A DNA stretch of 64,000 bases from positions 124,001 to 188,000 of the forward strand of contig NZ_BBQZ01000005.1 of the NCBI RefSeq assembly GCF_000974805.1, in the 5' to 3' direction. The stretch comes from Demequina salsinemoris (GTDB lineage: Bacteria; Actinomycetota; Actinomycetes; Actinomycetales; Demequinaceae). Numbering within the stretch: position 1 is the first letter of the stretch; every line of letters begins with the position of its first letter. The translations under genes were made by a program, and so were the position numbers. Shown here in pieces: positions 1-59,734 of this stretch. The notes under the pieces were generated by a model. The model saw only the letters and a list, made by a program, of their open reading frames with translations, had not been told where the DNA came from and made no database searches.

Positions 1-1650
1 CCGGCCGCCGATGCGGTGGTCGGGGACGTCACCGTCGCCTCGGTCGTGAGTATCGCCGCGGCGGTCGCGGTCGCGGCGTCGGCCTGGTGGTGGGCATGGC
101 CCGGCGCCCGCACAGTGGCGTTCGTCGGCGCATCCGCCTGGACCTCGGTGCTCGCGCTCGCAGCGCTCGCCCAGGCCGCCGATCAGGATCTGGACCTGTG
201 GCGAGGCCTCGCGGTGGCCCTGGCCGCGACCGCCGCGCTGGCGCTCGGCGCCCGCTGGCGCCCGATGATCACGCTGCCAGCCCTGACCGCGGTCGTGCCC
301 GTCGTGGTGCCGGCGACCGTCGCATCGTCCACCGACGACGTGCTCGCCACGAGCCTCGCCGCGGCGGCCGCAGGCGCGGCCGCATGCTGGGCGCTCGTGC
401 TGCTCACCCCCGCGCCGCGCGCGAGGGCCGCCCTGGGCCTCGCGACCTCGGCGATCCTCACGCTTCCCGCCGTCGCGATCGCAGGATGGCGGTGGACGTC
501 ACGCCTCGGCGAGGCGTGGGACTCGGGCGACGGCGCTCCGTCGTCCTTCGCGCCAGTGATGCTGGTGGCTGTCCTCGGACTTGCGCTCCTGTCGACGCGG
601 TGGTGGCGCACGCACGCCGCCTCCATCGGTACGGCGGTCGTGATCGCGCTGCTCTGTGCGCCACCCGAGGCGTGGGCCTGGGCCGTCGCGGCCACCGCCG
701 CGCTCGTGGCCGTCGTGGCCCTCGTGGCCACGGGACCGTGGGGACGTCTCGGCCCGCGGCCGGCGCACATCCTTGCGCTCGCGGCGTCCGCGGTCGTCTG
801 GGCCGGACCGCACGCCTGGGCGCAGGCGGGCGCGCTCACCGTCTCCGCCATCGTCCTGGGAGCCCTCGCGGCCCGCGCGGTGGAACCACGAGCCGCGTAC
901 GGCCATGGCGCCGCGCTGGCTCTCGCCGCCGCCGGCTGGAGCGCATGCATCGGAGCCGACGCGCCGACCGTCGCGTCGGCGCTCGCTCTCGGCCTGTACG
1001 GCGTCGGGCTGTCGGTGATGCTGAGGTTCGACGTCGTCGCGCGGCGCGACACCGCGATCGGGCTCGCCGGCACGTCCGTCGTCGCGACGATCGTCGCGCC
1101 GCACGGCGATGCGGTGGTCGCGGTCGCGCTCACGATGCTCGTGACCTCCGCCACCTGGCTGGTCCTGCGGCGCGAGCTGGGCCGATGGTCGCGCTGGGTC
1201 GCGGGTGCCTACGCGAGCGTCGGCGTGGGGCTGCTCATCCTCAGCGCCGGCATCGACACGCTCGAGGCGTACACGCTGCTGCCCGCGGCGTGGGTGCTCG
1301 CCGAGGGCGTCGCGTGGATGCGGCGCGACCCGCAGGTGCCCAGTGTGACGGCGGTCGGGGGAGGGCTCGCGCTCGCGATCGCCCCCAGCGTCGTCGCGCT
1401 CGCGATCCAGCCGGGTGCGCTGATCCGCACCCTGCTGCTCACGCTCGCGATCGCGGGGCTCGCCTTCGCCACGGTGCTGCTGCGCTGGCTCGCGCCCGCG
1501 GTCGCGGCCGCGGGGACATCGATAGCGGTCGCCCTCGCGCAGCTCTTCGTCGCCGAGCAGCTCGTGCCTCGCTGGGTCTCGTTCGCGGTCGTCGGGGCCG
1601 TGCTGATCGTGCTCGCCGCGACCTATGAGAGGCTCAAGGAGTTGCGCTGA
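1..1650 (+). CDS. polytopic membrane protein, 5' end outside the window
   Basis: The reading frame is open from base 1, so this is probably the C-terminal part of a longer protein; the first in-window start is a GTG at 16. The roughly 545 visible residues are almost entirely alternating hydrophobic segments, perhaps 16-18 membrane helices, rich in Ala, Val and Leu. It ends in ERLKELR. A closing pattern of the type WVSFAVVGAVL...ATYER is one I associate with large actinobacterial membrane proteins of unknown function. No catalytic or binding motif is visible. A short GC hairpin (1663-1677) follows the stop. One CGCATCGTCC copy lies inside it at 321, encoding Ala-Ser-Ser. Function unknown. Confidence 0.6.
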   Translation, partial: PAADAVVGDVTVASVVSIAAAVAVAASAWWWAWPGARTVAFVGASAWTSVLALAALAQAADQDLDLWRGLAVALAATAALALGARWRPMITLPALTAVVPVVVPATVASSTDDVLATSLAAAAAGAAACWALVLLTPAPRARAALGLATSAILTLPAVAIAGWRWTSRLGEAWDSGDGAPSSFAPVMLVAVLGLALLSTRWWRTHAASIGTAVVIALLCAPPEAWAWAVAATAALVAVVALVATGPWGRLGPRPAHILALAASAVVWAGPHAWAQAGALTVSAIVLGALAARAVEPRAAYGHGAALALAAAGWSACIGADAPTVASALALGLYGVGLSVMLRFDVVARRDTAIGLAGTSVVATIVAPHGDAVVAVALTMLVTSATWLVLRRELGRWSRWVAGAYASVGVGLLILSAGIDTLEAYTLLPAAWVLAEGVAWMRRDPQVPSVTAVGGGLALAIAPSVVALAIQPGALIRTLLLTLAIAGLAFATVLLRWLAPAVAAAGTSIAVALAQLFVAEQLVPRWVSFAVVGAVLIVLAATYERLKELR

Positions 1651-2439: not shown

Positions 2440-3225
2440 TCAGCCGACCGGCCGTTCCTTCGAGGAGGGCGGGACCGCGTCCCCAGCGTCGGACGCATCG
2501 TCCGTGTCGCCGTTGCCGTTGCCGTTGTCGCGCGATCCGAGCCGTTCGCGGTACTCGTTCGTCCAGGTCTTCCAGCGCTCGCGGCGAGACCCGCGTCCCG
2601 CCTGCTGCTCGGCCTCGCGTTCGAGCCGCTTGGACGTCTGCAGGAGGCCCTTGTGCTTGCGGCGGCGACGGCCGTTGGAGACGATCCGGTACAGGGCGGC
2701 GATCAGGACGACGAAGACCACCACGACGAGCACGGGGATGAAGATCGCGAGGAACGACAGCGCGACCGCGATCGCGTCCTCCGCGAACGATGCCAAGGGT
2801 GCCCCAGTGCCGCCGGTCGACGCGTTGATCGTGGGTCTGGAGGCGGTCTTGGACACGTGGACGATGCCGGCGATCACCGCGCCGACGATGCCCGCGATGA
2901 GGGGGTTCTCGGTCCAGAACACGTGGCCGTCGAACTCGGCGGCGGCCGCGCTCGCGGCGAAGATCACGCCACCCACGAGCGGGCGCACCGCGGTCTGGAT
3001 GAGGTCGTTCACGGTGTCGACGCCGGGGATCTTGTCGAGCACGATCTCGGCGGCGAGGAGCATGAGCCCGATGATGATCGCGGGCCACGACTGGAGCCAC
3101 ATGAGCTGCTCGGGCAGCTGCATCACGTCGGTGAAGCGCGCGAACACGCCCACCATGACGAGCGGGATGAAGGCGTTGAGGCCCGCCGCCGCGGAGAGCC
3201 CGGCTCCGGTCAGTGCGGCGAACAT
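2440..3225 (-). CDS. DUF4126 family membrane protein
   Basis: 261 aa. It begins MFAALTGAGLSAAAGLNAFIPL, the typical glycine/alanine-rich first helix of DUF4126 proteins, and continues with about five to six membrane segments and a conserved DKIPGVDTVND loop. A Lys/Arg-rich cytosolic tail starts near residue 190 (NGRRRRKHKGLLQ) and ends in an acidic, Asp/Gly-rich stretch. The tail carries one GGACGATGCG copy (2494-2503), encoding Asp-Asp-Ala. AGGAGG lies 6 bases before the ATG. Members often sit near transport or envelope genes, but no activity is established. Confidence 0.8.
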   Translation of the reverse strand: MFAALTGAGLSAAAGLNAFIPLVMVGVFARFTDVMQLPEQLMWLQSWPAIIIGLMLLAAEIVLDKIPGVDTVNDLIQTAVRPLVGGVIFAASAAAAEFDGHVFWTENPLIAGIVGAVIAGIVHVSKTASRPTINASTGGTGAPLASFAEDAIAVALSFLAIFIPVLVVVVFVVLIAALYRIVSNGRRRRKHKGLLQTSKRLEREAEQQAGRGSRRERWKTWTNEYRERLGSRDNGNGNGDTDDASDAGDAVPPSSKERPVG

Positions 3226-8116: not shown

Positions 8117-9523
8117 TCAGGCGTTGGCGGCCTCGCTCGCGCGCACCTCGGTGAGGATCTCCTCGACCTTGGCCTTCGCGTCGCCGAACAGCATCGCCGA
8201 GTTCTCGCGGAAGAACAAGGGGTTCTGCACGCCGGCGTAGCCGGTGGCCATGGAGCGCTTGAAGACGATGCACTGCTTGGCCTTCCAGACCTCCATGACG
8301 GGCATGCCCGCGAGCGGCGAGCCCGGGTCCTCGAGCGCGGACGGGTTCACGACGTCGTTCGCGCCGATGACGAGCACGACGTCGGTCTCGGGGAAGTCGT
8401 CGTTGATCTCGTCCATCTCGAGGACGATGTCGTAGGGCACCTTGGCCTCGGCCAGCAGCACGTTCATGTGGCCGGGGAGGCGGCCGGCGACCGGGTGGAC
8501 GCCGAAGCGCACCTCGACGCCGCGCGCCCGCAGGTTCGCCACGAGGTCGGCGACCGGGTACTGGGCCTTGGCGACGGCCATGCCGTAGCCGGGGACGATG
8601 ACGACGGACGATGCGCCGGTGAGCATCTCGGCGACGTCCGTGGCCTGGACCTCGGTGTGCTCGCCCTGCTCGGCGGCGGCGGATGAGGTGCCGCCCTCCT
8701 GACCGAACCCGCCGAGGATCACGGAGACGAACGCGCGGTTCATCGCCTTGCACATGAGGTAGGACAGGATCGCACCGGACGAGCCGACGAGCGCGCCGGT
8801 GACGATGAGCAGGTCGTTGCTCAGCATGAGGCCCGCGGCGGCCGCGGCCCAGCCCGAGTACGAGTTGAGCATCGACACGACGACGGGCATGTCGCCGCCG
8901 CCGATCGCGGCGACCAGGTGGAAGCCGAGCAGCAGCGCGATCACGGTCATGATCAGGACAGGGACGATGCTTCCCGTGGCCATGTAGACGAACATCAGCA
9001 CGAGGCTCGCGACGACCGCACCGAGGTTCAGCCAGTTGCGGCCGGGCAGCGTGAGCGGGCTCGACTTCATCTTCGCGGACAGCTTGAGGTAGGCCACGAT
9101 CGAGCCGGTGAGCGTGACCGCGCCGATGAAGATGCCGAGGAACACCTCGATCTGGTGCACGGCGTCGGCGTGCGTCTCGGTGAGGTGGGAGTTGAAGCCC
9201 ACCAGCACCGCGGCCGCGCCGACGAAGCTGTGCAGCATCGCGATGAGCTCGGGCATCTGGGTCATCTCGACGGTGCGAGCCCGCCAGAATCCGATGGAGG
9301 CGCCGATCGCGAACACCATGGCGATGAGCAGCGCCGCCTGGAGCGGGCGGTCGGACGTGTCGAGCGACAGGACGACGGTCGCGGCGAGCGCGAGGCCCAT
9401 GCCGACCATGCCGAGCATGTTGCCCCGGCGCGCGGTCTCCTGCTTGGACAGGCCGGCGAGCGACAGGACGAAGAGGACGGCGGCGATCAGGTACGTGGCC
9501 TGGGCGAGCGAGGTGAGCGTCAT
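8117..9523 (-). CDS. pntB: NAD(P) transhydrogenase subunit beta
   Basis: 468 aa. It has an N-terminal block of about nine membrane helices and a C-terminal NADP(H)-binding domain III. Domain III is recognised by [16 protein letters not shown], the [23 protein letters not shown] stretch, and the [11 protein letters not shown] segment. Together with PntA it couples proton entry to hydride transfer from NADH to NADP+. The ATG at 9523 overlaps the pntA stop (ATGA) and has AGGAAGG 7 bases upstream inside pntA, so the two are translationally coupled. Confidence 0.96.
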
Positions 9524-11082: not shown

Positions 11083-11383
11083 CGTCGATCCTTGTCCGCC
11101 GCCGCGGGACCGACCGCCGATGGCGCGGCGAGGGTCCGGGGCGACCAGTGCGTCGGCCGACCCCCGCGAACCTCGCAGGGGTCGGATGAGTTCCGTCCGT
11201 CGAACTCTAGCCAACCATGCGTGGGGGAGGCGTGGTACCTAGTACCCGGCTCTGGCGGTACCTCCCACGGGACCGCGCCTCGCATCGTCCGGCCGCGACG
11301 GGGCGCCTCGCAGGACTAATGCGCGTCATGCGCGCGTTGGCACTGGCGACGCATCTGCACCACCCTCGAGGAGCACCCACCGC
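11083..11383. promoter_or_regulatory. divergent regulatory region pntA / LLM-FAD gene
   Basis: A TAGAGT -10-like box on the minus strand (11209-11204) would give pntA a leader of about 115 bases. A GGTAC-CTA-GTACC palindrome (11234-11246) lies inside a larger imperfect hairpin (CGTGGG...CCCACG, about 11219-11269). One CGCATCGTCC copy sits at 11281-11290. No -10 for the rightward gene is convincing. GAGGAG 10 bases before 11384 is its ribosome site. Confidence 0.4.
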
Positions 11384-13594
11384 ATGGATCTCGGGCACCC
11401 GCTCGCCTTCGGCACCTTCATCACACCCGGCAACGCGCAGCCGCAGGCGCCCGTGGCGCTCGCGAAGCTGAGCGAACGGCTCGGCTACGACCTGGTCACC
11501 TTCCAGGACCACCCGTACCAGCCCGCGTTCCACGACACGTGGACTCTGCTTTCGTACGTCGCCGCCGCGACCGAGTCCATCCACCTGGCGCCGAACGTGC
11601 TCAACCTGCCGCTGCGCCAGCCGCTCGTCGCGGCGCGGGCCGCAGCCTCGCTCGACCTCCTGAGCGGCGGGCGCCTGGACCTGGGCCTCGGCGCGGGCGG
11701 GTTCTGGGACCCGATCGAGGCGATGGGAGGACGCAGGCTGACCCCGGGGCAGGCGGTCGACGCGCTGTCCGAGGCGATCGACCTCATGCGCGGCCTGTGG
11801 TCGCCCGAGGAGCGCGGCGGGCTGCGCGGTCGCGACCACTACACGGCCAGCGGCGCCAAGCGCGGGCCCCGGCCCGCGCACGAGATCCCGATCTGGGTGG
11901 GCGCGTACAAGCCGCGCATGCTGCGCCTCACCGGTCGTCAGGCGCACGGGTGGCTCCCGAGCCTCGCGTACATGAAGCCCCACGAGATCGGGGAGCACAG
12001 CGCGCGCGTGGACGATGCGGCCGCGGGCGCGGGGCGCGATCCTGGGGAGATCCGGCGCCTCCTCAACATCGGCGGTCGCGAGTCGGTCGCTCAGCTGTCC
12101 GACCTCGCGCTCGCGCACGGCTTCTCGACCTTCATCGTCGCCTCGGACGATCCGACGGCGATGGCGCGCTTCATCCAGGAGGTGGCGCCCGCGGTGCGGG
12201 ACGCCGTCGCCGAGGAGCGTTCGCGCCGCGGCACCGCTCCGGCATCTGGGCGTTCGCGGCGCGCGCTCGACGCACGGCGGGACGGCATCGATTACGAGGC
12301 CGTCCCCGACTCGCTGCGGGAACGCGCGGTCGAGCCCGGCGACTTCGCCTACCCGACCGCGAGCTCGACCTATATGAGAGGAGGCGCGCCCGGCATCGTC
12401 CTGCGGCCCGAATCCGCCCTCCAGGTGGCGGACGCGCTCGCGTTCGCGCGCGCCCACCGCCATCTTCCGTTCGGGATCCGCTCCGGTGGGCACGGCATCA
12501 GCGGGCGCAGCACCAACGACGGCGGCCTCGTGATCGACCTGGGCGCGCTCGACGCCATCGAGGTGATCGATGAGGCCAGCCGGCGCGTGCGCGTCGGCCC
12601 CGGCGCGCGCTGGCAGGACGTGGCCCGCGCGCTCGAGCCGCACGGGTGGGCCATCACGAGCGGCGACTACGGCGGCGTGGGCGTCGGCGGGCTCGCGACC
12701 GCGGGCGGGATCGGCTTCTTGGGACGCGAGCACGGGCTGACGATCGACCACCTGGTGGCGGCCGACGTCGTCCTGGCCGACGGGACGCTCGTGCACGTCT
12801 CCGCGACCGAGCGGCCCGACCTGTTCTGGGCCGTGCGCGGCGCGGGCTTCGCGATCGGCGTGGTCGTGGCGTTCGAGTTCGAGGCCCAGCCCGTCGGGAA
12901 CGTCGGCTGGGTCCAGCTCGCGTTCGACGCAACCGACACCGCGGGCTTCCTGCGCCGGTACGCCGAGGTCACCGAGGCCGCACCGCGCGACACGACGCTG
13001 TTCCTCATGGCGGGAGCCCCGAGGCCGGGGCAGCCGCCGATCGTGCGGCTGTACGGGATGGTCGACTCGGCAGACCCGGACACGATCATCGAGCGGGTCA
13101 CACCGTTCGCGTCGATCGCGCCGCTCGTGGACCAGTCGATCCAGCTCGGCTCGTACGCCGACGTCATCGCGAACGCCCCCGACACGCCCCACCAGGGCCA
13201 GGGCGAGCCGGGCTTCCGCTCGGGGCTGCTCGATGAGCTGGGCGAGGACACGGCCGCGCTCGCGGCCACGCTCCTGACCTCCGGAACGACACCGTGGTTC
13301 CAGCTGAGGCCCGTGGGCGGAGCGATCGCGGACGTCCCCGCCGACGCGACCGCCTACGCGCACCGCGGGGCCCGCTACTCGCTCACCGCGATCGCCGGCT
13401 CGCCCGCGTTCGACGCGCTGTGGCGGCCGCTCGCCTCCCGTTTCCACGGCCTGTACGTGAGCTTCGAGTCGCGGGACGATGCGTCGCTGGTCGCCGAGGC
13501 GTTCCCCGAGGCGACGCTCGCGCGCCTGCGCGGCATCAAGCGCGCGGTGGATCCCGAGGGTCTGTTCAGGGACAACTTCCCGCTGTTCGACTGA
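11384..13594 (+). CDS. fused luciferase-like monooxygenase and FAD-linked oxidase
   Basis: 736 aa with two flavin modules. Residues 1-275 are a luciferase-like (LLM, FMN or F420) TIM barrel: GTFITPGNAQP, TFQDHPYQPAF, GGRLDLGLGAGGFWDP, IPIWVGAYKPRML. After a linker (about 280-320), residues 320-736 are a PCMH-type FAD domain (IVLRPESALQVADAL, RSGGHGISGRS with His370, GVGVGGLATAGGIGF) with a berberine-bridge-like C-terminus (DPEGLFRDNFPLF). His370 could carry a covalent FAD. The Cys of bicovalent relatives is replaced (SGDYGGVGVGG), so at most one link is expected. Substrate unknown. GGACGATGCG copies lie at 12010 and 13474. Confidence 0.85.
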   Translation: MDLGHPLAFGTFITPGNAQPQAPVALAKLSERLGYDLVTFQDHPYQPAFHDTWTLLSYVAAATESIHLAPNVLNLPLRQPLVAARAAASLDLLSGGRLDLGLGAGGFWDPIEAMGGRRLTPGQAVDALSEAIDLMRGLWSPEERGGLRGRDHYTASGAKRGPRPAHEIPIWVGAYKPRMLRLTGRQAHGWLPSLAYMKPHEIGEHSARVDDAAAGAGRDPGEIRRLLNIGGRESVAQLSDLALAHGFSTFIVASDDPTAMARFIQEVAPAVRDAVAEERSRRGTAPASGRSRRALDARRDGIDYEAVPDSLRERAVEPGDFAYPTASSTYMRGGAPGIVLRPESALQVADALAFARAHRHLPFGIRSGGHGISGRSTNDGGLVIDLGALDAIEVIDEASRRVRVGPGARWQDVARALEPHGWAITSGDYGGVGVGGLATAGGIGFLGREHGLTIDHLVAADVVLADGTLVHVSATERPDLFWAVRGAGFAIGVVVAFEFEAQPVGNVGWVQLAFDATDTAGFLRRYAEVTEAAPRDTTLFLMAGAPRPGQPPIVRLYGMVDSADPDTIIERVTPFASIAPLVDQSIQLGSYADVIANAPDTPHQGQGEPGFRSGLLDELGEDTAALAATLLTSGTTPWFQLRPVGGAIADVPADATAYAHRGARYSLTAIAGSPAFDALWRPLASRFHGLYVSFESRDDASLVAEAFPEATLARLRGIKRAVDPEGLFRDNFPLFD

Positions 13595-13611: not shown

Positions 13612-13655
13612 CGCATCGTCCTGGCTGCCGCATCGTCCTGGCTGTCGCATCGTCC
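13612..13655 (+). repeat. three tandem CGCATCGTCC copies at 17-bp spacing
   Basis: Exact copies start at 13612, 13629 and 13646, so the period is 17 bp, with unit CGCATCGTCCTGGCTG(C/T). They begin 17 bases after the upstream stop codon. The same decamer recurs throughout the window, and two other triplets lie at 26261-26319 and 60249-60290. Role unknown. Confidence 0.9.
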
Positions 13656-13677
13656 TGGCCGCCGGCATTGCGGGCCC

Positions 13678-16997: not shown

Positions 16998-18529
<1,532 letters not shown>

Positions 18530-22188: not shown

Positions 22189-23200
22189 CGATCAGACGAC
22201 GCGCGCCGCGACCATCTTCGACGTCGCGAGGCTCGCCGGGGTCTCGCACCAGACGGTCTCGCGCGTGCTCAACGACCTCCCCAACGTGCGCCCCGCCACG
22301 CAGCAGCGCGTGCGTGAGGCGATCGCCCAGCTCAACTACAGCCCGTCGCCCGCCGCCCGCGCGCTCGTGACCAGGCGCACGCGCACGATCGGGCTCATCA
22401 CCCCGGACAACGTGGACTACGGACCGTCCTCGATCGCGATGCACGTCAACAAGGCCGCGCGCGAGGCGAGGTACAGCGTCGACGCCGTGAGCACGCAGGG
22501 CTCGAGCGAGTCCGCGGTGCGCGCGAGCATCGAAGGGCTGCTGCGGCAGAGGGTGGACGCGGTCGTCGTGATCGTCGCCGAGAGGGCCGCGCTCGAGGTG
22601 GTGCGCGCTCTCGACATGTCGGTGCCGCTCGTGGCGTCGGCGGCGAGCCCGCGGCCGAGCTCGCGGACCGTGTCGATCGACCAGTATCGCGGCGCGCGGG
22701 CCGCGGTGGCGCACCTCGCGGAGCTCGGACACACGAGGATCCGTCACCTCGCGGGTCCGCTCGACGCCCCCGACGCGACCGAGCGGCTGCGCGGCTGGCG
22801 AGACGAGCTCGCCGCGCGCCAGCTCGAGACCGCCGAGCCGCGGCACGGCGACTGGAGCGCCGCGAGCGGCTTCGCGCTCGGTCACGAGCTGGACCTCGAG
22901 CCTGGCTCCGCGGTGTTCGTCGCCAACGACCAGATGTCGATCGGGCTCATGTCCGCTCTGAGGCAGCGAGGCCTGTCGGTGCCGCGCGACGTCAGCATCG
23001 TCGGCTTCGACGATGTGCCCGAGGCCGGGTTCCTCTACCCGCCGCTCACGACGGTCCGCCAGGACTTCGCCGCCCTCGGACGCGCGATCGTGCAGAAGGT
23101 GCTGTTCGCGCTCGAGGACGATGCGGAGGCGACCACCGACACGCCGCTGCCCGCGCAGCTGGTGATCCGCGAGTCGACCGCGGAGATCGAGCCGGACTGA
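22181..23200 (+). CDS. LacI-family transcriptional regulator
   Basis: 339 aa. The N-terminal TIFDVARLAGVSHQTVSRVLN is a textbook LacI helix-turn-helix, followed by the hinge helix SPAARALVTRRTRTIGLI. The core is a periplasmic-binding-protein fold ending with SIVGFDDVPEAGFLYPPLTTVRQDF. The context (end of a sugar transporter cluster, overlapping the second ATPase gene) and the LacI-type sites at 15703-15817 suggest that it represses ytfQRT-yjfF in the absence of the transported sugar. Confidence 0.93.
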   Translation: MADDQTTRAATIFDVARLAGVSHQTVSRVLNDLPNVRPATQQRVREAIAQLNYSPSPAARALVTRRTRTIGLITPDNVDYGPSSIAMHVNKAAREARYSVDAVSTQGSSESAVRASIEGLLRQRVDAVVVIVAERAALEVVRALDMSVPLVASAASPRPSSRTVSIDQYRGARAAVAHLAELGHTRIRHLAGPLDAPDATERLRGWRDELAARQLETAEPRHGDWSAASGFALGHELDLEPGSAVFVANDQMSIGLMSALRQRGLSVPRDVSIVGFDDVPEAGFLYPPLTTVRQDFAALGRAIVQKVLFALEDDAEATTDTPLPAQLVIRESTAEIEPD

Positions 23201-24890: not shown

Positions 24891-26200
24891 GCCCCACGTT
24901 CAACGACGTCCCCGTCCGCACCGAGACGCGCGCGCTCAAGGAGCGCGTGGACCGGCTGCGCGCCTCGATGGAATGGGCGGCCGACGCGATCCCGCGGGAC
25001 GTCCGCGACGAGGTGCGCGAGACCATCGGACGATGCGACGAGCGGCTCGCGCTCGGCGTCGACTGGACGATCGTCGCGCTCGCGGGCGGCACGGGCTCGG
25101 GCAAGTCGACGCTGTTCAACGCTCTCGTCGGCACCGACTTCGCGGTGCCGGGGGTCACGCGGCCGACCACGTCGCATGCCTCCGCCGCGGTGTTCTCGCA
25201 CGGCGCGCACCCGCTGCTCGACTGGCTCGGCGTGCAGGAGGAGCACCGCTATCACGTGCCGCAGCCGCCCGAGGAGCTCCACGGGCTCGTGCTGCTCGAC
25301 CTGCCCGACCACGACTCGATCAACGGCGCCAACAGGGACGTCGTCGACGTCGTCGTGCCGCTCGCGGACCTCATCATCTGGGTCGTCGACCCGCAGAAGT
25401 ACGCCGACCACGCGATCCACTCGGCCTACATCCAGACCGCGTCCGTGCACGGCCAGCCGTCCCTGATGGTGCTCAACCAGACCGACCGCCTGGCCGAGGG
25501 TGACGACTGGAAGATCATCGAGGACCTCCAGCGGCTGCTGGGGGACGAGGGGCTTCCCGACGTGCCGGCGATGCCGCTCAGCGCGCGCACCGGGCGCGGC
25601 GTCGAACACCTCAAGGCCGAGCTCGCGGGCGCGGTCGAGTCGGGCTCGATCGCGGCCGAGGCCGTGCGCGCCGACCTGGTCTCCGCGGGCAGGGCGCTCG
25701 CGAGCGCGCTCGCGCAGGACGCCGAGCCGACCCTGCCGGACAAGCGCGAGGTCACCGACGCGCTCGCCCGCCTGTCGGGAGTCGAGGCGCGCGCCGAGGC
25801 CGCCGGCGCAGTCGCCTCTGGTAAGGCCAAGCACGTGCCCGACCTCACGCCGCTGGGCCTCGCGTCCGTCGAGCGCGAGCGGCTCGACTGGATCGACGCC
25901 GCCTCCGACGGGCTGCCGCTCACGTGGCGTCACGTCATCGCCGACACGGTCGCGAGCGGCGAGGAGCTCGCCGACGCGCTCAACCGCGAGCTCGCGGAGG
26001 CGGAGTGGCCCACGGTGGAGAGCCCTTCCGGGTTCAGCGGCTGGATGTCGCGCCCCGTGCGCGGGTCGGCGGCCTCGAAGGCCGCGATGGCCGTCGGGCA
26101 CGACGCCGTGGCTCGCGTCGTGCGCGACTCGCTCGTCGAGCCGACCATCAGGATCCACCAGGCGTATCGCAACCTCGACGAGCTCACGCGGCTCGAGTAG
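24887..26200 (+). CDS. YfjP-family GTPase, second of the pair
   Basis: 437 aa. G1 GGTGSGKST, G3 DLPDHDS and G4 NQTD are all present; KERVDRL near residue 15 starts a helix before the G domain. The C-terminal half is helical, with an amphipathic SGFSGWMSRPVRG segment that could touch membranes. It starts with a GTG overlapping the previous stop, so the two GTPases should be made in equal amounts. It is followed by a three-copy decamer repeat and then ssb. Confidence 0.82.
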   Translation: MSPTFNDVPVRTETRALKERVDRLRASMEWAADAIPRDVRDEVRETIGRCDERLALGVDWTIVALAGGTGSGKSTLFNALVGTDFAVPGVTRPTTSHASAAVFSHGAHPLLDWLGVQEEHRYHVPQPPEELHGLVLLDLPDHDSINGANRDVVDVVVPLADLIIWVVDPQKYADHAIHSAYIQTASVHGQPSLMVLNQTDRLAEGDDWKIIEDLQRLLGDEGLPDVPAMPLSARTGRGVEHLKAELAGAVESGSIAAEAVRADLVSAGRALASALAQDAEPTLPDKREVTDALARLSGVEARAEAAGAVASGKAKHVPDLTPLGLASVERERLDWIDAASDGLPLTWRHVIADTVASGEELADALNRELAEAEWPTVESPSGFSGWMSRPVRGSAASKAAMAVGHDAVARVVRDSLVEPTIRIHQAYRNLDELTRLE

Positions 26201-26260: not shown

Positions 26261-26319
26261 CGCATCGTCCCTTCTCCACCGTTCCCGGCCCCCGCATCGT
26301 CCTGGCCCTCGCATCGTCC
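26261..26319 (+). repeat. three CGCATCGTCC copies between GTPase and ssb
   Basis: Exact copies start at 26261, 26293 and 26310 (spacings 32 and 17 bp). They lie 61 bases after the GTPase stop and 48 bases before the ssb ATG, on the same strand as both genes. Two further copies are inside the ssb tail (26762 and 26798). Confidence 0.9.
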
Positions 26320-26366: not shown

Positions 26367-26918
26367 ATGAACGACCTGACCATGACCGCATCCGGCTGGG
26401 TGGCGACCGAGCCCAAGCTGCACATCGGTCCCAGCGGCACCACGCTGTGCACGTTCCGGCTCGCGACCACGCCGCGGCGCTACGACCGCACCGCCAACAC
26501 CTGGGTGGACGGCGACACGCAGTGGTTCACCGTGCGCACCTTCCGTGGCGCGGCGGTGACCGTGAAGCAGTCGGTGAAGAAGGGACAGCCCCTCGTCGTG
26601 ACGGGGCGGCTGCGCACGAACACGTGGGAGGCGAACGACGGGCCGCGCACCGACCTGCAGATCGACGCGACCTCGCTGGGACACGACCTCACCCTGGGCA
26701 TCGCGACCTTCAACAGGGCGGTCGGGGACCCGACGCTCGGCGTCGAGGATGTCGTGGCCGACGCATCGTCCGAGGAGGGTGAGGGCGCGGTCGCCGAGGA
26801 CGATGCGGCGGTCGCCGGCGCGTGGGACGTCGAGCCGGAGGGGGACGAGCCCGAGGGCCTGGAACCCGAGGGCGTCGAGCCCGAGGAGGACGCGGACGAG
26901 CTCGTCGCGGCGCGCTGA
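26367..26918 (+). CDS. ssb: single-stranded DNA-binding protein
   Basis: 183 aa. Residues 1-110 are an OB fold of SSB type (MTASGWVATEPKLHIGPSG, FRLATTPRRYDRTANTWVDG, WFTVRTFRGAAVTVKQSVKKGQPLVVTGRL). The tail is acidic with PEG(D/L/V)EPE repeats but ends DADELVAAR, so it lacks the DDDIPF-type tip by which replicative SSBs recruit partner proteins. This is probably the accessory SSB paralog rather than the rpsF-linked one. GAGGAGG 5 bases before the ATG sets the start. Confidence 0.9.
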   Translation: MNDLTMTASGWVATEPKLHIGPSGTTLCTFRLATTPRRYDRTANTWVDGDTQWFTVRTFRGAAVTVKQSVKKGQPLVVTGRLRTNTWEANDGPRTDLQIDATSLGHDLTLGIATFNRAVGDPTLGVEDVVADASSEEGEGAVAEDDAAVAGAWDVEPEGDEPEGLEPEGVEPEEDADELVAAR

Positions 26919-28857: not shown

Positions 28858-28893
28858 TAGCGTTCAGGGCCGGCGCATCGTCCCGACGTCCGA

Positions 28894-31071: not shown

Positions 31072-32360
31072 CACTGCACCTCCTTCGCGTCGATGGTGCC
31101 CGTTTCGACGGCGGCCTCCAGGGCCTCGTCGACCACCTCGGTGGGCAACGGGTCGGGCCTGGGCGAGGCCTCGGTCTCGGGCTCGCCGCCGAGGGCGGAC
31201 AGGAGCGTGACGCGCGGCACGACGCCGACCAGGCGTCCCCGCTCGTCGATGACGGCGAGCGGGAGCTGCGCCTCGACGACCGGGATGAAGAGGTCGGCGA
31301 GCGAGGTGTCCTTCGCGACGGCGCCGTGGTTGTCGCGGATGATCGTCTCGAGGCTCGTGACGCCCTGGCGCACGAGGTCGAGCGCGTCGCGGTCGGTGAC
31401 CCAGCCGATGAGCGTGCGGTCGCGCTTGGTGACGTAGACCGCGCTGAGCTGCTCGTCGCGCATGATCTTGAGTGCGACGTGCGGGCCCGCGGCGGGGTGG
31501 ACGGACGCGCGCGGCTTGCGCATGACCGACTCGGCGGTCAGCACGCGCGTGCGGTCCACGTCGGCGACGAACTGCTCGACGTACTCGTTGGCCGGGTCGG
31601 TGAGGATGTCCTCGGGAGAGCCGATCTGGACGATGCGGCCGTCCCGCATGACCGCGATGCGGTCGCCGAGGAACATGGCCTCGTTGAGGTCGTGCGTGAT
31701 GAAGATGATGGTCTTGCCAAGCGTCGCCTGGAGCTCGAGCAGCTGCTCCTGCATCTCGCGACGGATCAGCGGGTCGAGAGCGGAGAACGCCTCGTCCATG
31801 AGGAGCACGTCGGTGTCCGCGGCGAGCGCGCGGGCCAGGCCGACGCGCTGCTGCATGCCGCCCGAGAGCTGGCTGGGGAGCTTCTCCTCCCAGCCGGCGA
31901 GGCCGACGATCCCGGTGACCTCGCGGGCCTTGGCATCGCGCTCGGTCTTCGGCATCCCCTGGATCTCGAGGCCGTAGGCCACGTTGTCCAGGACGGTGCG
32001 GTGGGGGAGCAGGGCGAAGTGCTGGAACACCATGGAGACCCGCTTGCGGCGGATGTCGCGCAGCTTCTTGGCGGGGATGTCGGTGATCAGGTCCCCGCCG
32101 ATCTCCACGGTGCCGGCCGTCACGTCGTGCAGGCCGTTCAGCATGCGGATGAGGGTCGACTTGCCCGAGCCGGAGAGGCCCATGACCACGAAGATCTCGC
32201 CGCGCTGCACCTCGAAGGAGGCGTCGATGACGGCTGCCGTCGTGCCGGCGCCGAGCTCGTCGCGGCTGGCGCCCTCCTCAAGACGGGACACGGCCTGGTC
32301 GGCATGCTTGCCGAAGACCTTGTACAGGCCCTCAGCGCGCAGCGCGATGCTGTCGCTCAC
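31071..32360 (-). CDS. proV: glycine betaine/proline ABC ATPase with CBS domains
   Basis: 429 aa. Walker [10 protein letters not shown], signature [15 protein letters not shown] and Walker [13 protein letters not shown] are clear. Residues about 270-390 form a tandem CBS pair ([14 protein letters not shown]...[33 protein letters not shown]) that gates OpuA-type importers by ionic strength or c-di-AMP. The GTG at 32360 has AGAGGA 8 bases upstream. It is the first gene of the operon; a long leader region with repeats precedes it. Confidence 0.94.
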
Positions 32361-33686: not shown

Positions 33687-34121
33687 TCAGCCTCCCGGCG
33701 TCGGCTCGAACGTGTTGATCATCGAGTGGGCCGCGCGCTCGAGGTAGTCCATGAGCGTCGCCGAGTGCATCGGCGAGAGCTGGGCCTCGACCACGGCCGC
33801 TCGCATGTGAAGCATCCAGCGGTCGCGCGCCTCGGGGTTCACGTGGAAGGGCTGGTGGCGCATGCGCAGCCGCGGATGGCCGCGCTGCTCGGAGTAGGTG
33901 GTGGGCCCGCCCCAGTACTGCTCGAGGAAGGCGGTGAGGCGCCAGACCGCGCCGTCCATGTCGTCCTCGGGGTACATGGGGCTCAGCACGTCGTCGTCCT
34001 TCACCCCCTCGTAGAAGCGGCGCACGATCGCCTCGAACGTCTCGTGCCCGCCCACGGCGTCGTAGAAGCTGGGAGGCTCGGTGGGGGACATGGACGATGC
34101 GGGGGCGACGGGCTCGCTCAC
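33687..34121 (-). CDS. glbO: group II truncated hemoglobin
   Basis: 144 aa. Heme-site residues match GlbO: Tyr37 (B10), Tyr50 (CD1, SPMYP), His89 (F8, RMRHQPFHV), Trp102 (G8, RDRWMLHM). Such globins bind O2 tightly and are linked to oxidative and nitrosative stress. The GTG start overlaps the mscS stop (GTGA), so it is translated from the mscS message. A CGCATCGTCC copy (34092-34101, minus strand) encodes Ala-Ser-Ser in the variable N-terminal tail. Confidence 0.95.
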   Translation of the reverse strand: MSEPVAPASSMSPTEPPSFYDAVGGHETFEAIVRRFYEGVKDDDVLSPMYPEDDMDGAVWRLTAFLEQYWGGPTTYSEQRGHPRLRMRHQPFHVNPEARDRWMLHMRAAVVEAQLSPMHSATLMDYLERAAHSMINTFEPTPGG

Positions 34122-35302
34122 TCGTCGCCCTCGCCGCCGTCGGCTCCGTCACCCTGGTCGCCGCGCACGACGGAGCCCCCGCGGGTCAGCTCGTCCTTGC
34201 CGGGCTTCGCGTGGTGCGACGCGCTGGCGGCCGACTTGGCGCCGGCCGTGGACGATGCGGCGGTCTCCTCCTCTGCCGTGCCGGGGGGCGCGGGCTCCGA
34301 CATCCTGTAGGCCTGGTGCGGGATCGCCATCTCGATGCCGCGCTCCGTGAACTCGCGGCGGACCTCGCGGCGCACCGCGCGCATCACGTCCCACTGGGTC
34401 GCGGGCTGGACCTGGATGAGCAGGCGGATGGTCACGGCGTCGTAGTCGAAGCCTTCGATGCCGGGCACGTCGGGCTCGGACAGGATCGCGTTGTCGATGA
34501 CCTCGTCGGCCCTCCGCGCGGCCTCGACTGCGCTCAGCATCGCCTCGCGCGCCTCCTCGAGGTCGGTGTCGTAGCCGACGCGGATCTCGAGCAGCGCCCG
34601 CGACCATAGCCGCGTCATGTTGCCGACGCGCGTGATGTTGCCGTTCGGGACGTACCACATCGTCCCGTCGATCGACCGCAGTCTCACGGAGCGCAGGCCG
34701 ATCTCCTCGACCGTGCCGGAGGCCTCGCCGACGTCGATGATGTCGCCCACGCCGTACTGGTCCTCCACGAGCATGAAGACGCCCGCGATCAGGTCCTTCA
34801 CGAGCGACTGCGCGCCGAAGCCGAGCGCGACGCCGACGACTCCCGCGGACGCGAGCAGCGGGGCGATGTTGATGCCGACCTCGCCGAGCACGATCAGCGT
34901 GACGGTCATGATCACGAAGACGGAGAGCGAGGCGTTGAGCACGAGGCGGATGGTGCGCGCGCGCTGCTTGCGGCGCTCCCGCTCGAGCCGGGATTCGAGA
35001 GTGTCCTGCATCGGGACCGCGATCTTCGCCTTGCGGAGCGCCGACTTCGCCTTGTGCTCCGTGATCGGCAGCCCGTCCTCGATGGACTGCGTGACGATCT
35101 TGATGACCCACCGGCCGAACAGCAGGAACAGGACGCCCGCCAGGATGATCGCGATGATGAAGGCGGCCTCGCCCCAGCCCGAGCCGAGCCAGTCCACGAA
35201 GCTGTTGGACACCTCATCGACGGTCTTGCTGCCGGGCAGCGGCGTGGCCGTGACGTCGGGGGACGGGTCAACGGTCGCGGCGAGGAATGCTGCAGTCATC
35301 AC
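34118..35302 (-). CDS. MscS-family mechanosensitive ion channel
   Basis: 394 aa with about four hydrophobic segments. The pore-lining helix and beta domain are typical: GVVGVALGFGAQSLVKDLIAGVFML split over residues about 165-190, then GDIIDVGEASGTVEEIGLRSV and GTMWYVPNGNI. A Ser/Ala/Lys-rich tail (about 350-394) carries one decamer copy (34250-34259, Ala-Ser-Ser). A TACTGT box (35315-35310) lies 7 bases before the GTG at 35302; the ATG one codon later is equally possible. Confidence 0.92.
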   Translation of the reverse strand: MMTAAFLAATVDPSPDVTATPLPGSKTVDEVSNSFVDWLGSGWGEAAFIIAIILAGVLFLLFGRWVIKIVTQSIEDGLPITEHKAKSALRKAKIAVPMQDTLESRLERERRKQRARTIRLVLNASLSVFVIMTVTLIVLGEVGINIAPLLASAGVVGVALGFGAQSLVKDLIAGVFMLVEDQYGVGDIIDVGEASGTVEEIGLRSVRLRSIDGTMWYVPNGNITRVGNMTRLWSRALLEIRVGYDTDLEEAREAMLSAVEAARRADEVIDNAILSEPDVPGIEGFDYDAVTIRLLIQVQPATQWDVMRAVRREVRREFTERGIEMAIPHQAYRMSEPAPPGTAEEETAASSTAGAKSAASASHHAKPGKDELTRGGSVVRGDQGDGADGGEGDE

Positions 35303-37608: not shown

Positions 37609-40191
<2,583 letters not shown>

Positions 40192-40305: not shown

Positions 40306-40328
40306 GAGCAGTCGGACGATGCGCTGGA

Positions 40329-43091: not shown

Positions 43092-44366
43092 ATGCGGCGA
43101 CGATGGTCGACGGCCTGGCTGTGGGGCCTGGTGCCCGTCGGGGTCGTGCTCCTCGCCTCCACGGGGCTGCGCTCGCCGATCGCGGTCGTCGCGCCGCTCG
43201 TGTCCGACATCTCCTCCGACCTCGGTCTCGACGCGCCGACGGCGGCCCTCCTCACGTCGATCCCCGTCCTGTGCTTCGGGCTTCTCACCCCTGCGGCGTC
43301 GTGGCTGCTCGGGCGGGTCGGCATCAACCACGGGATGCTCTACTGCCTGGGCGGAATCGTCCTGGGGTCGCTCATCAGGTCCTTCGCGGGGATGGCGGGA
43401 CTGCTCGCCGGCACCGTCCTCATCGGCGCCTCGCTCGCGATCGGCAACATCGCCGTTCCCATGCTCATCGGCCGCCAGTTCAGGCATCGGGCCGCGCTTC
43501 TCATGAGCGCGTACACGGCGAGCGTCAACATCATGGTCACGTTCGTGACGGCCACCGCCGTGCCGATCGCCACGGTGGTCGGGTGGCGGTGGTCGGCCGC
43601 GTGGGTCGGGGTCGCGATCGGCGTGATCGCGTTCGCGGTGTGGATCGCCGTCTATCCTCCCGGCGTGCGCGGCGCGAGCGCCGCCGTGAGGAGGCGAGCG
43701 GGACTGACGGAGCCGACCCCGAGCCTCGACGGACCAGGGACTGTGGCGAGCGCGCCGCGCGCGATCGGTCGCTGGCGCTTCGTCTGGCTCCTCCAGGTGG
43801 CCTTCGCGGGTCACACGATCTCCTACTTCTCCATGACCGCGTGGCTGCCGCTCGCCCTCGCCGATCTTCAGGGCCTCGGCGCCGCCGGCGCCGGTGTCGC
43901 ATCGTCCGTGTTCCAGGCGGCCGGGATCCTCGGCCCCTTCCTGGTCCCCGTGCTCGCGGGGCCGTTGCGCTGGAGCCCGCCCCGCATGCTCGCGGTGATC
44001 TCCGCCGGATGGCTGCTGCTCCCGGTCGGGCTGCTCGTCGCGCCCGGGTGGTGGTTCGTGTGGTCCGCCGTGGGAGGCCTCGCGCAGGGGGCCTTCTTCA
44101 CGGCGCTGTTCGTGTCCGTCGTCCTGCGCTCGCGCGACGTCGACGAGAACCGGCGGATCACCACGCGCGTCCAGGTCGCGGGCTACACGGCCGCGGCTGC
44201 CGGTCCCGTGCTCGCGGGTCTCATCTATGAGCACACCTCGGGCTGGACGCTGCCCTTCGCCTTCGTGGTCGCCGTGCTCGCGGTGGGCTCGATCGCCGCG
44301 GTCGCCTCGGCGAGCGACGTCTCGCAGCCCGCCGAGGCCGTGGCGCCCGGGGCGGGCGTAGGGTGA
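43092..44366 (+). CDS. MFS transporter, CynX/NimT type
   Basis: 424 aa with 12 predicted helices. The first helix region LLASTGLRSPIAVVAPLVSDISSDLGLDAPTAALLTSIPVLCFGLL (two stretches) is characteristic of the CynX/NimT cyanate/2-nitroimidazole transporter group, whose substrates are mostly unknown. AGGGGG 7 bases before the ATG sets the start; the long upstream frame extension runs antisense to pepN and is not coding. Its stop overlaps the region just before the esterase gene, with which it probably forms an operon. Confidence 0.9.
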   Translation: MRRRWSTAWLWGLVPVGVVLLASTGLRSPIAVVAPLVSDISSDLGLDAPTAALLTSIPVLCFGLLTPAASWLLGRVGINHGMLYCLGGIVLGSLIRSFAGMAGLLAGTVLIGASLAIGNIAVPMLIGRQFRHRAALLMSAYTASVNIMVTFVTATAVPIATVVGWRWSAAWVGVAIGVIAFAVWIAVYPPGVRGASAAVRRRAGLTEPTPSLDGPGTVASAPRAIGRWRFVWLLQVAFAGHTISYFSMTAWLPLALADLQGLGAAGAGVASSVFQAAGILGPFLVPVLAGPLRWSPPRMLAVISAGWLLLPVGLLVAPGWWFVWSAVGGLAQGAFFTALFVSVVLRSRDVDENRRITTRVQVAGYTAAAAGPVLAGLIYEHTSGWTLPFAFVVAVLAVGSIAAVASASDVSQPAEAVAPGAGVG

Positions 44367-44404: not shown

Positions 44405-45730
44405 ATGTCCAAGGGTGCGGCCTGGCGCGTCGACACGCCGCTGGGTCCCGTGCTCGCGCATCGTGATGGCGACCTGTGGCGCGCGCGGGGCATCCCGTAC
44501 GCCGAGGCCGCGCGATTCGAACGGCCTTCGCCTGTGCGGCCCTGGCGCAAGCCGTACGACGCCGCGACGCCCGCCCCCGTCAGCCCCCAGGCTGCAGACG
44601 GGCTCACCGCCTCGATCAGCCCGGATTACACGGAGCTTCTCGGGATCGACGAGCGCTGCCAGCGAGTGTCGGTCACCTGGCCGGACGATGCGGGCGACGA
44701 GCCGCTGCCCGTGGTCGTCTGGATCCACGGGGGCAGCTTCCTCACGGGAGCCGGCGACCTCGAGGCGTACGATCCGGCGCTGCTCGTGCGCGAGCAGCGC
44801 GTCGTCTTCGTCTCCGTCACCTACCGGCTCGGCCTGCTCGGATGGTTCGGGGACGACGACTTCGCGCCCGCGAACCTGGGCCTGCTGGACATCCTCGAGG
44901 CGCTGAGATGGGTGCGCGCGTGCGTGTCGAGCTTCGGCGGAGACCCGACTCGGATCACCGTCATGGGCCAGTCGGCGGGCGGGGACGCGATCGCCGCGCT
45001 CCTCGCCGTGCCCGAGGCGCAGGGACTGTTCCGGAGGGCGATCCTCCAGTCCGCGCCGCTCGGCATCGACGATCGTCGCGACGGCATGCATCGCACGATG
45101 CGCGGCGTGGTCGCGCCCGTGGACCCCGGCATGGGGCTCGACGAGGTGTACCGCGCGCAGGAGGACATCTACCGCGCGACGAAGCGGCATGGGCTCAAGG
45201 GGCTCATGCCGTTCGGTCCCCAGTGGGGGCGCCACCCGCTTCCTCCGGAGTCGCGTCGCGCGACCGAGACCGCGCGCGCGAGCCGCGTGGACCTGATGGT
45301 CGGACACCTGTCGCAGGAGGGCATCGTGGTCGGTGCGGCCATCCCCGCCGTCGGCAGGGCCTTCCGCGCGCGCGTCGTCGGCGGCTCCGCCCAGCGGGCG
45401 ATCGCCGGTCCGCTGCAGGCAGTCGTGTACGAGCGCCCCGCGCGGGCCTTCGTGGACGCTCATCGGGCAGCCGGAGGGCGCGCCGTGCACTACGTGCTCG
45501 GGTGGAAGGCGACCGGGTCGCCGATCGCCGACGGCCACGGCATGGACATGCCCGTCCTGCTCGGCGACCCCGACGCCTGGACCCAGGCGCCCGCACTCGT
45601 CAACGAGAGCGCTGACCGGATCCGTCGGGTCGGCGCCGCGGTGCGGCAGGTGTGGGGCGACTTCGCCCGCACCGGCGCGGTGGCACCGGGCTCGGCGGCC
45701 GCCGCGTCGGAGTGGCTCAGGCTCAGCTGA
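44405..45730 (+). CDS. type B carboxylesterase
   Basis: 441 aa alpha/beta hydrolase. Oxyanion hole HGGSF (109-112), nucleophile Ser190 in MGQSAGGDA, and N-terminal GIPYAEAARFERP are type B carboxylesterase hallmarks. The likely catalytic His is in PIADGHGMDMP. GGAGG 7 bases before ATG 44405 fixes the start, rejecting a GTG at 44363. It hydrolyses carboxyl esters; substrate unknown. One GGACGATGCG copy is at 44683. Confidence 0.92.
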   Translation: MSKGAAWRVDTPLGPVLAHRDGDLWRARGIPYAEAARFERPSPVRPWRKPYDAATPAPVSPQAADGLTASISPDYTELLGIDERCQRVSVTWPDDAGDEPLPVVVWIHGGSFLTGAGDLEAYDPALLVREQRVVFVSVTYRLGLLGWFGDDDFAPANLGLLDILEALRWVRACVSSFGGDPTRITVMGQSAGGDAIAALLAVPEAQGLFRRAILQSAPLGIDDRRDGMHRTMRGVVAPVDPGMGLDEVYRAQEDIYRATKRHGLKGLMPFGPQWGRHPLPPESRRATETARASRVDLMVGHLSQEGIVVGAAIPAVGRAFRARVVGGSAQRAIAGPLQAVVYERPARAFVDAHRAAGGRAVHYVLGWKATGSPIADGHGMDMPVLLGDPDAWTQAPALVNESADRIRRVGAAVRQVWGDFARTGAVAPGSAAAASEWLRLS

Positions 45731-55251: not shown

Positions 55252-56418
55252 ATGGCTGAGGAGATCGCGACCCCGTCGGGAAGCGCCGACGGAGTCGACA
55301 GGTGCCCCAAGTGCGGCGCGTCCGACGTCGTGCAGCTCGAGGACCAGCACCAGTTCATGTGCTCGTTCTGCCGTCACCGGTGGGGCTTCGAGCGGCTCGA
55401 CGAGGCGATGGGCCTGTCCGAGGGCATCGCGGACCTCACAGGGGTGAGCTACTCGACCGCGGCCTCCGACATCGTCTCGGACGATGCGCTCGTCACGCTC
55501 AAGTGCGACGGCTGCGGATCGGAGGTCGTCGTCGACACCGACCGCACGCTCCAGGCGCGCTGCCACTGGTGCAAGCACGTCCTGTCGCTCAACAACAGGA
55601 TCCCCAACGGCGCGGTGCCCGACGGGATCCTGCCGTTCTCGGTCACGCGCGAGCAGGCGATGGCGCACATCCAGAGGTTCGCCGAGGAGCGCAGGTCCTT
55701 CGCTCTCCCGGCCTTCGCTGACACCTTCACCCCCGCGAACGTCATGGGCGTGTACCTGCCGTACATGACGGTCGACGGCAACATCTCAGCGCGGCTCGAC
55801 GGCATCGGGGAGATCACCAGGCGCACCACCCACAGCAAGGAGCACGGCACCACCTACTACGTGGACCGCTACGGGGTGACGCGCATGCTCGACATCGAGA
55901 TCGATGACCTCATCGTCGAGTCGAACTTCGAGAAGGCGAACATCCGCTCGGCGACGAGCACGAACAACGTGATCAACGCGATCCTGCCGTTCGACGTCAA
56001 GAACATCGTCCGCTTCGACGCGCACTTCCTGGGTGAGGATTACACCTCGCAGCGGCGCGACATGGACATCGACGAGGCCGAGGGCGTCGCCGCGAACCAC
56101 TTCATGACCGTGGCGCGCGGCGCCTCCGAGGCCTCGGTCGCCCAGTACCGCCGCGGCGTGCGCTGGGAGTCCGAGCAGCTCCGCATCGACGGGGTGCGCT
56201 GGACCTCCGTCCTGCTCCCGGTGTGGCTGTACGGCTTCGTCGAGAACCGCAAGGGCACCCCCGTGACGCACTACATCGCCGTCAACGGGCGCACCGGCGC
56301 GACGATGGGGTCGGTCCCCATCAACACCAGGAAGGCCGCGATGCTCGCATGGGGCATCGCGATCGGCGTCTCGGTGGTCACCTGGCCACTGGGCTTCGCG
56401 ATGCTGGTGGCGTCATGA
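55252..56418 (+). CDS. double zinc-ribbon protein, YdjG-like (short form)
   Basis: 388 aa, a paralog of the protein at 52148. Zinc ribbons C18/C21/C37/C40 and C85/C88/C104/C107 are followed by the same core (GILPFSVTREQAM, VYLPYMTVDGN, AILPFDVKNIVRFD, WTSVLLPVWLYGFV, HYIAVNGRTGAT). It ends after one membrane helix (AMLAWGIAIGVSVVTWPLGFAMLV). The second helix and tail of the long paralog are encoded by the next gene, which overlaps by ATGA. It starts 6 bases after the SPFH stop, so it is in that operon. Confidence 0.85.
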   Translation: MAEEIATPSGSADGVDRCPKCGASDVVQLEDQHQFMCSFCRHRWGFERLDEAMGLSEGIADLTGVSYSTAASDIVSDDALVTLKCDGCGSEVVVDTDRTLQARCHWCKHVLSLNNRIPNGAVPDGILPFSVTREQAMAHIQRFAEERRSFALPAFADTFTPANVMGVYLPYMTVDGNISARLDGIGEITRRTTHSKEHGTTYYVDRYGVTRMLDIEIDDLIVESNFEKANIRSATSTNNVINAILPFDVKNIVRFDAHFLGEDYTSQRRDMDIDEAEGVAANHFMTVARGASEASVAQYRRGVRWESEQLRIDGVRWTSVLLPVWLYGFVENRKGTPVTHYIAVNGRTGATMGSVPINTRKAAMLAWGIAIGVSVVTWPLGFAMLVAS

Positions 56419-56891
56419 TGCTCGGCGACGTCTCGGACGTGCTCGCCGCGAACGTCGTCCTTGCGTACGGCGGGGGAGGAGGCGACGGCGGTGGCCTCGG
56501 CTTCTTCGCGCTGCTCCTGTTCGCGGCGGGGCCCGCCGCGGGCTGGGGGACCTGGACGTGGATCCAGCGCCGCTACCGCAATCGGGAGGCCCGCTACCGG
56601 CCCGACCGGACCGTGGCCCACCACGTCTCGAGCCTCACAGGCGATGACCAGCCCCGCGGTCGGTTCAGGAGCCGTTCCGCCTACACCTCGGACCGCAACG
56701 ACGGCGCCCCGGATCAGCGGGCGCGCCACGCGCAGTACTTCCACGGCGAGCTCCGCAAGCCGGAAGCGGAGGACGAGGTCGAGGACGGCGTGCGCGAGGG
56801 CGAGGCCGAGCCAGCGCCCCCGGTGACGGGAACCGCACCCCCGCCGCCCCCCGCATCGTCCCCTCCGACCCCTCCTCCGCCGACGCGCTAG
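56415..56891 (+). CDS. small membrane protein completing the short YdjG-like protein
   Basis: 158 aa. A Gly-rich segment and one or two helices (LGFFALLLFAAGPAAGWGTW) precede IQRRYRNREARYRPDRTV and QRARHAQYF. These match RRYRNAEARYEPEK and LRARHCVYF at the same relative place in the C-terminus of the protein at 52148. The 55252 and 56415 genes therefore look like the two halves of one ancestral protein. The end is Pro-rich (PPPPPASSPPTPPPP), with a decamer copy at 56852. It could instead act as a YdjH-like partner. Confidence 0.75.
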   Translation: MMLGDVSDVLAANVVLAYGGGGGDGGGLGFFALLLFAAGPAAGWGTWTWIQRRYRNREARYRPDRTVAHHVSSLTGDDQPRGRFRSRSAYTSDRNDGAPDQRARHAQYFHGELRKPEAEDEVEDGVREGEAEPAPPVTGTAPPPPPASSPPTPPPPTR

Positions 56892-58346: not shown

Positions 58347-58928
58347 TCACAGCTCCGAGGCGACGACCGACGCGAGCGCGGTCGTGACGTCCGAGAGGTC
58401 GACCCAGTCGTCCACGTAGTGGAGGACAGTGACCGACAGGCCGCCGACCGCGAACTCCACGACCGTGCCGTTCTGGGCGACGAACGCATCGTCCGCGCCT
58501 TCGAGTTGGACGTCGGAGGCGTCGCCATAGTCCGTGTCGGCCTGCGCGCGCACGTCGGCGAAGTCGCCCGAGAGCGCCTTCACCTGCACCTGCACGGTCG
58601 AGTACGAGTCGCCGGACGCGTACCAGTCGCACACCGCGAGATCGCTGTCCGAGAGGATCGCGTTGAACTCGCCGGCCTCGAAGGCCTCCCCGACGATCGA
58701 CTCGAGCGACGCCTCATCCAGGAGGTCGCACGCGTCGGGAAGGTCGGGCGAGATCGACTGCTGGTCGGCGACCGCCTGCTCGGAAGCAGCGTCCTCGACC
58801 ACGTAGACCGTCTCATCCGTCGCCACCGCCGGGTCCGCCTCGGCCGCCTCGCACGCGGACAGCCCCGCCGCCATGAGGATGGCGCCGGTGATCAGTGCGG
58901 ACTGTCGGACGGGCGTGCGGAAGCGCAT
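58347..58928 (-). CDS. secreted lipoprotein, DUF3558-like
   Basis: 193 aa. The signal ends in a lipobox, AGLSAC|EAAEA. The mature part is acidic, with LPDACDLLDEASLESIVG and CDWYASGD, a pair of Cys in a spacing that resembles DUF3558-type actinobacterial lipoproteins, and a final DLSDVTTALASVV helix. Function unknown. ATG 58928 with AGGA 5-7 bases upstream is chosen over a start 17 codons earlier. A decamer copy at 58485 encodes Asp-Asp-Ala. Confidence 0.7.
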   Translation of the reverse strand: MRFRTPVRQSALITGAILMAAGLSACEAAEADPAVATDETVYVVEDAASEQAVADQQSISPDLPDACDLLDEASLESIVGEAFEAGEFNAILSDSDLAVCDWYASGDSYSTVQVQVKALSGDFADVRAQADTDYGDASDVQLEGADDAFVAQNGTVVEFAVGGLSVTVLHYVDDWVDLSDVTTALASVVASEL

Positions 58929-59724: not shown

Positions 59725-59734
59725 CGCATCGTCC
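59725..59734 (+). repeat. single CGCATCGTCC copy 3' of the RibD-like gene
   Basis: An exact decamer lies 42 bases after the stop at 59683, in the same orientation relative to the upstream gene as all other 3'-side copies. It ends 8 bases before the stop of convergent trmL. Confidence 0.85.

Follow-up and report, generated by a model that had tools for sequence, protein, structure and literature searches.

The window, by which we mean the whole 64-kb stretch of DNA analysed, contains three places at which the decamer CGCATCGTCC occurs three times in close succession: in the gap that separates a luciferase/FAD-binding oxidoreductase gene from a tRNA-Arg gene, in the gap upstream of the ssb gene, and between the genes for a SpoU-type methylase and a CLC channel, Table 1. 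An earlier note had reported these triplets from three separate gaps, and we recovered all nine decamers where it had placed them, each triplet being intergenic with respect to the predicted genes. What the note overlooked is the decamer itself, which is the main feature here, the triplets being a side effect of a larger pattern. Between the first triplet and the tRNA-Arg gene there is also a long imperfect palindrome of very high stability (outer arms CCGCACGTCTTCCACACA and TGTGTGGAAGACGTGCGG; DNA fold z = -7.9). Segments related to it recur at some 20 further sites of the genome and mark it as belonging to a separate dispersed family of palindromic repeats.

Table 1 Tandem and single copies of the decamer in the window, and the palindrome beside the first array
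Feature	Position	Strand	Details
Three-decamer tandem array	13612..13655	+	starts 13612, 13629, 13646; spacing 17, 17
Three decamers	26261..26319	+	starts 26261, 26293, 26310; spacing 32, 17
Three decamers	60249..60290	-	starts 60249, 60264, 60281; spacing 15, 17
Imperfect palindrome	13672-13782		
Single decamer	321..330	+	exact word
Single decamer	2494..2503	+	exact word
Single decamer	8606..8615	-	exact word
Single decamer	11281..11290	+	exact word
Single decamer	12010..12019	-	exact word
Single decamer	13474..13483	-	exact word
Single decamer	17756..17765	+	exact word
Single decamer	23116..23125	-	exact word
Single decamer	25028..25037	-	exact word
Single decamer	26762..26771	+	inside ssb gene; 36 bp from opposite-strand copy at 26798
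Single decamer	26798..26807	-	opposite orientation to copy at 26762
Single decamer	28874..28883	+	exact word
Single decamer	31628..31637	-	exact word
Single decamer	34092..34101	-	exact word
Single decamer	34250..34259	-	exact word
Single decamer	38767..38776	+	exact word
Single decamer	38983..38992	-	exact word
Single decamer	40314..40323	-	exact word
Single decamer	43898..43907	+	exact word
Single decamer	44683..44692	-	exact word
Single decamer	55479..55488	-	exact word
Single decamer	56852..56861	+	exact word
Single decamer	58485..58494	+	exact word
Single decamer	59725..59734	+	exact word
Single decamer	63849..63858	-	exact word

In a count of all 10-mers in the window, CGCATCGTCC ranks first with 34 copies, the runner-up reaching 20. 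Counted on both strands of the whole genome of the host, a member of Demequina in the Actinomycetota (G000; 3.21 Mb in 20 contigs), it occurs 1,403 times (690 forward, 713 reverse), compared with 4 occurrences (3 forward, 1 reverse) of the reversed word that served as control. By its sequence the word is non-palindromic, and it is present both in genes and in intergenic DNA, equally on the two strands. Neisseria and Haemophilus use "self" tags in DNA uptake, and such tags (DUS and USS) share this form: a short non-palindromic word with some 1,000 genomic copies or more, on both strands. Outside the genus Demequina, where this decamer alone was counted in other families of the order, there are 12-37 copies per genome.

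Strand, dialects and turnover of the word

No strand preference was found in three pieces with the same sign of GC skew (33/36, 48/48 and 17/17), and Chi and KOPS were rejected for want of a replication-related strand bias. Convergent, divergent and tandem intergenic gaps have much the same density of the word (1.05, 0.80 and 0.93 per kb, respectively), on which grounds a promoter or terminator element was rejected, and the copies are spaced along the genome no more evenly than random. As regards the depletion from prophages and foreign islands expected of DUS/USS, the longest stretch free of the decamer (18.7 kb) contains ordinary metabolic genes, does not reach significance (p = 0.08) and gives no support to a mobile island.

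By an unbiased count of overrepresented k-mers in 80-kb samples from 15 relatives, we found related words elsewhere in the genus at a density similar to that of CGCATCGTCC, the full set comprising CGCATCGTCC, CGCATCGGCC, (A/G)GCATCGGCC(C), GGCATCGTCC(C) and AGCGTCGGGC(C). Whole-genome counts confirm CGCATCGTCC, CGCATCGGCC and AGCGTCGGGC, and GGCATCGTCC and (A/G)GCATCGGCC are known from the samples. Genome-wide, 15 of the 44 Demequina genomes have 711-1,564 copies of CGCATCGTCC each, eight have 667-1,203 of CGCATCGGCC, which is less frequent in mixed cases, and AGCGTCGGGC reaches 908 copies in G009 and 254 in G012 over a background of 6-52 elsewhere. One genome, G022, bears two words at comparable density in its sample (927 copies of CGCATCGTCC and 483 of CGCATCGGCC genome-wide) and is possibly caught between dialects; no convincing word was found in G001, G003, G018 and G042. 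The dialects have the core GC(A/G)TCG in common, and in occurring as dialects among related species the words again behave as DUS/USS do. On a tree of ComEC the words group by clade, and the window's lineage (G000 and G004) shares its word with a distant clade while adjoining motif-free and GCGTCGGGC species, a placement for which gene transfer could account, as the tree is built from one gene that is itself a competence gene.

Dialects of this type would likewise arise if the word were a binding site for a chromosomal protein, such as a nucleoid organiser, a segregation or recombination factor or a Chi-like system, whose specificity drifts between clades and changes the word along with it, and abundant species-specific oligonucleotides do exist, Chi being an example. 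This explanation, which calls for a hypothetical binding protein, sits uneasily with a word that, unlike Chi or KOPS, lacks strand preference at constant GC skew and is not concentrated in any one class of intergenic gap, and we consider it unlikely, albeit worth keeping in view.

Orthologous coding sites carry the exact word in 25 of 82 same-dialect comparisons vs 5 of 132 others, and they are usually gapless, which indicates that substitution, and not insertion, both creates and erodes the word. Forms of the decamer with one mismatch are also enriched (247 vs 47 for the control). They concentrate at positions 1, 4, 8 and 10, and the tolerated mismatch positions largely coincide with the differences between dialects, positions 1, 4 and 8 being among the changing ones. 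Accumulation by point substitution fits any drive, and one could speculate that the word has no role in uptake and is maintained by a neutral or mutational drive of the kind suggested for HIP1 (through biased repair, through methylation or through an orphan methyltransferase), the enrichment of one-mismatch forms being in line with this. However, CGCATCGTCC is non-palindromic, in contrast to the palindromic octamer GCGATCGC of HIP1, and the bias in repair or methylation would have to switch among several related 9-10-mers, which makes such a drive quite improbable.

Spacing and origin of the tandem arrays

Genome-wide, 111 same-strand pairs of decamers have 0-30 bp between them, whereas the control has 0. 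Among the 100 of these 111 pairs that were listed, the start-to-start spacing is most often 18 (24 pairs), 17 (19) or 15 bp (10), any other spacing being represented by at most 6 pairs, with about 0.3 expected per spacing. The 17-bp period claimed in the earlier note thus stands insofar as the spacing, tabulated across the genome, is not random, but it does not stand as a single period, and the equal copy number of the three triplets turns out to be a chance property of the window, since elsewhere the genome has runs of 2, 3, 4 and 6. In the sampled stretches, all 17-bp pairs are intergenic, and the few clearly coding pairs include spacings of 15 and 18 bp, both of which preserve the reading frame.

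The filler that the units were said to share is only loosely alike across the arrays (TGGCTGC/TGGCTGT, TGGCCCT and CTGCC/CTGCCCC). Fillers from one array are 79% identical, those from different arrays of equal unit length 40%, and the likeness within and unlikeness between arrays mark each as the product of local duplication of a decamer-containing unit. Of the two origins that had been offered for the triplets, a minisatellite expanding from the decamer is therefore borne out, for the arrays only, whose units and filler are alike inside and different between arrays, and iterons bound by a multimeric protein are not. The arrays are small local tandem duplications of a widespread word.

Tandem pairs with 5-8 bp between decamers (units of 15-18 bp) are frequent only in the window's own genome (60) and in G004 (17); G022 has 9 and G054 has 6, and there are 0 in G002, G011, G039 and G040, four same-dialect genomes with more than 1,000 decamers each. 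Since the pairs are missing where the decamer persists, the arrays are a by-product specific to the lineage and no conserved protein-binding unit. The non-random spacings of 15, 17 and 18 bp, and the fact that the close relative G004 has the 60249 triplet at the corresponding site, its units differing slightly in length, could be taken to speak for functional iterons, which as direct repeats of about 17 bp in plasmid origins bear some likeness to the arrays. Yet a conserved array that binds a multimer should not be lost or become rare in most same-dialect genomes when the decamer persists in them; the filler is similar only inside a single array; and in place of a conserved array of fixed spacing at a functional locus we find many scattered chromosomal loci with 2-6 copies each. 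We have discarded iterons as highly improbable.

Coding copies, import genes and a putative uptake tag

With genes called by a simple codon-usage ORF caller in place of a standard annotation, a 498-kb sample of the window's own genome has 147 coding copies vs 10.8 +/- 2.4 expected from 60 synonymous-codon shuffles (maximum 17), an enrichment of approximately 14-fold, and an intergenic density 2.4 times the genic one. In its own genome the word is thus, as DUS/USS are, overrepresented beyond the constraints of protein and codon usage and enriched between genes. Most other dialect genomes likewise have coding copies several-fold above their own shuffles, and G014 and G049, the two CGCATCGGCC genomes in the sample, show no intergenic excess (0 and 3 intergenic copies). 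That common peptides and preferred codons create the word, as the concentration of coding copies in two frames (Asp-Asp-Ala, 82; Ala-Ser-Ser, 43) might lead one to think, is refuted for the own genome by the shuffling and by the greater density outside genes, and hardly deserves further consideration.

Of 41 Demequina genomes, 40 have ComEC and all 41 have type IV prepilin signals. In the window's own genome, members of the PilT and PilM families score above curated cut-offs. A cluster on contig C19 encodes pilins, PilC, PilM, a prepilin peptidase and ATPases of the PilB-like and PilT-family kinds, and the ComEA gene is immediately upstream of that for ComEC, so that PilB/PilT/PilC, ComEA and ComEC occur together in one genome, as in the DUS/USS systems. 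This set corresponds to a retractable type IVa pilus with ComEA and ComEC. Gene content is no predictor of the word, as the motif-free G001, G003, G018 and G042 share the ComEC and pilin families.

The genus has two types of type IV pilus operon (L253, L255-L272), which are told apart by whether the major pilin is followed by a pilin-like protein of ~600-660 aa. The own genome has the short type and its ComEC neighbours G001, G004 and G012 the long one, a mismatch that suggests operon exchange. In the single-contig genome G009, the match to ComEC (contig C1, 2039413-2040200) is split over two overlapping frames, from either a broken gene or an assembly error.

Many species also carry, outside the pilus cluster, a solitary and conserved gene for a type IVa pilin-like protein of ~135 aa in which a Trp-Cys and a C-terminal Cys are invariant. 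In the own genome this gene is located beside a metE-like gene (L254:6945-7379, contig C14 of G000), and its product is a candidate DNA-binding minor pilin. The AlphaFold2 model of the protein is confident and pilin-like (pLDDT 87.5), and a Foldseek search with the model gave no significant match to a solved structure. When ComEC distance was allowed for, its identity did not track dialect across 16 species (p = 0.16), and we make no claim for it as the dialect-determining receptor.

Taken together, the abundance, strand neutrality, DNA-level drive, turnover by substitution and clade-wise dialects of the word match DUS/USS, and Chi, KOPS, HIP1 and iterons fit less well. By analogy with Neisseria DUS, CGCATCGTCC is probably a self tag of this lineage that resembles DNA uptake sequences and is maintained through recombination and a bias in uptake. 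Binding to a receptor, a bias in uptake and the causal loop between them are what we infer: extracellular DNA bearing the word would be bound at the cell surface by a receptor, probably one of the minor pilins of the type IVa pilus, PilT-driven retraction of the pilus would follow, ComEA/ComEC would import a DNA strand, and recombination would put it in place of the home allele. Uptake would favour point mutations giving rise to the word, and the word would accumulate wherever the sequence tolerates it, that is, in intergenic DNA and, in genes, mostly in the two frames named above. A shift in receptor specificity would then lead to rewriting of the word and to dialects with a common core, and the triplets would be intergenic copies later multiplied by local tandem duplication.

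In a literature search that covered few subscription journals, we found no report on competence in Demequina and no prior report of a DUS/USS-like tag in Actinomycetota. The balance tips slightly towards Demequina having evolved sequence-specific uptake with several dialects independently of Neisseriaceae and Pasteurellaceae, the first such case in Actinomycetota, and towards the window's lineage having come by a distant clade's word, through a switch or through convergence.

Relation to known systems

Uptake tags have been described from two proteobacterial families, Neisseriaceae and Pasteurellaceae (PMC5031613, PMC3630211), in which they are considered to have evolved independently (PMC12616744), and natural transformation with ComEA/ComEC and Tad/Flp pili is known from the actinobacterium Micrococcus luteus (PMC6370729). 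If the uptake-tag reading is correct, Demequina would provide a third, unrelated case, in Actinomycetota, suggesting that sequence-specific uptake extends beyond the two known families, and the live, motif-free and switched lineages within one genus would allow one to trace stepwise how uptake specificity arises, is lost and is rewritten. Laboratory transformation of these environmental bacteria should then improve with the home decamer on the donor DNA.

Chi and KOPS resemble the Demequina word as short abundant chromosomal words and differ from it in their polarity, and cyanobacterial HIP1 is likewise a very abundant short word of debated function, but is palindromic, whereas the Demequina word is not and has dialects. 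Published DUS and USS behave like the Demequina word (PMC3630211, PMC1939737). With the USS of Pasteurellaceae it shares abundance, shortness, the existence of subtypes and accumulation by substitution (PMC1626085, PMC1939737), although sequence and phylum are different, and uptake is an experimental fact for USS and inferred for Demequina. From the DUS of Neisseriaceae it differs in its core, GC[A/G]TCG vs the unrelated GCCGTCTGAA, in its actinobacterial host with a putative receptor and uptake, and in that close copies are mostly direct (17 direct and 7 inverted within 60 bp in the sample) and not inverted pairs. In both, however, a non-palindromic 10-mer is present in one to several thousand copies, genic and intergenic, with related dialects in related species and a type IVa pilus and com genes in the same cells (PMC3630211).
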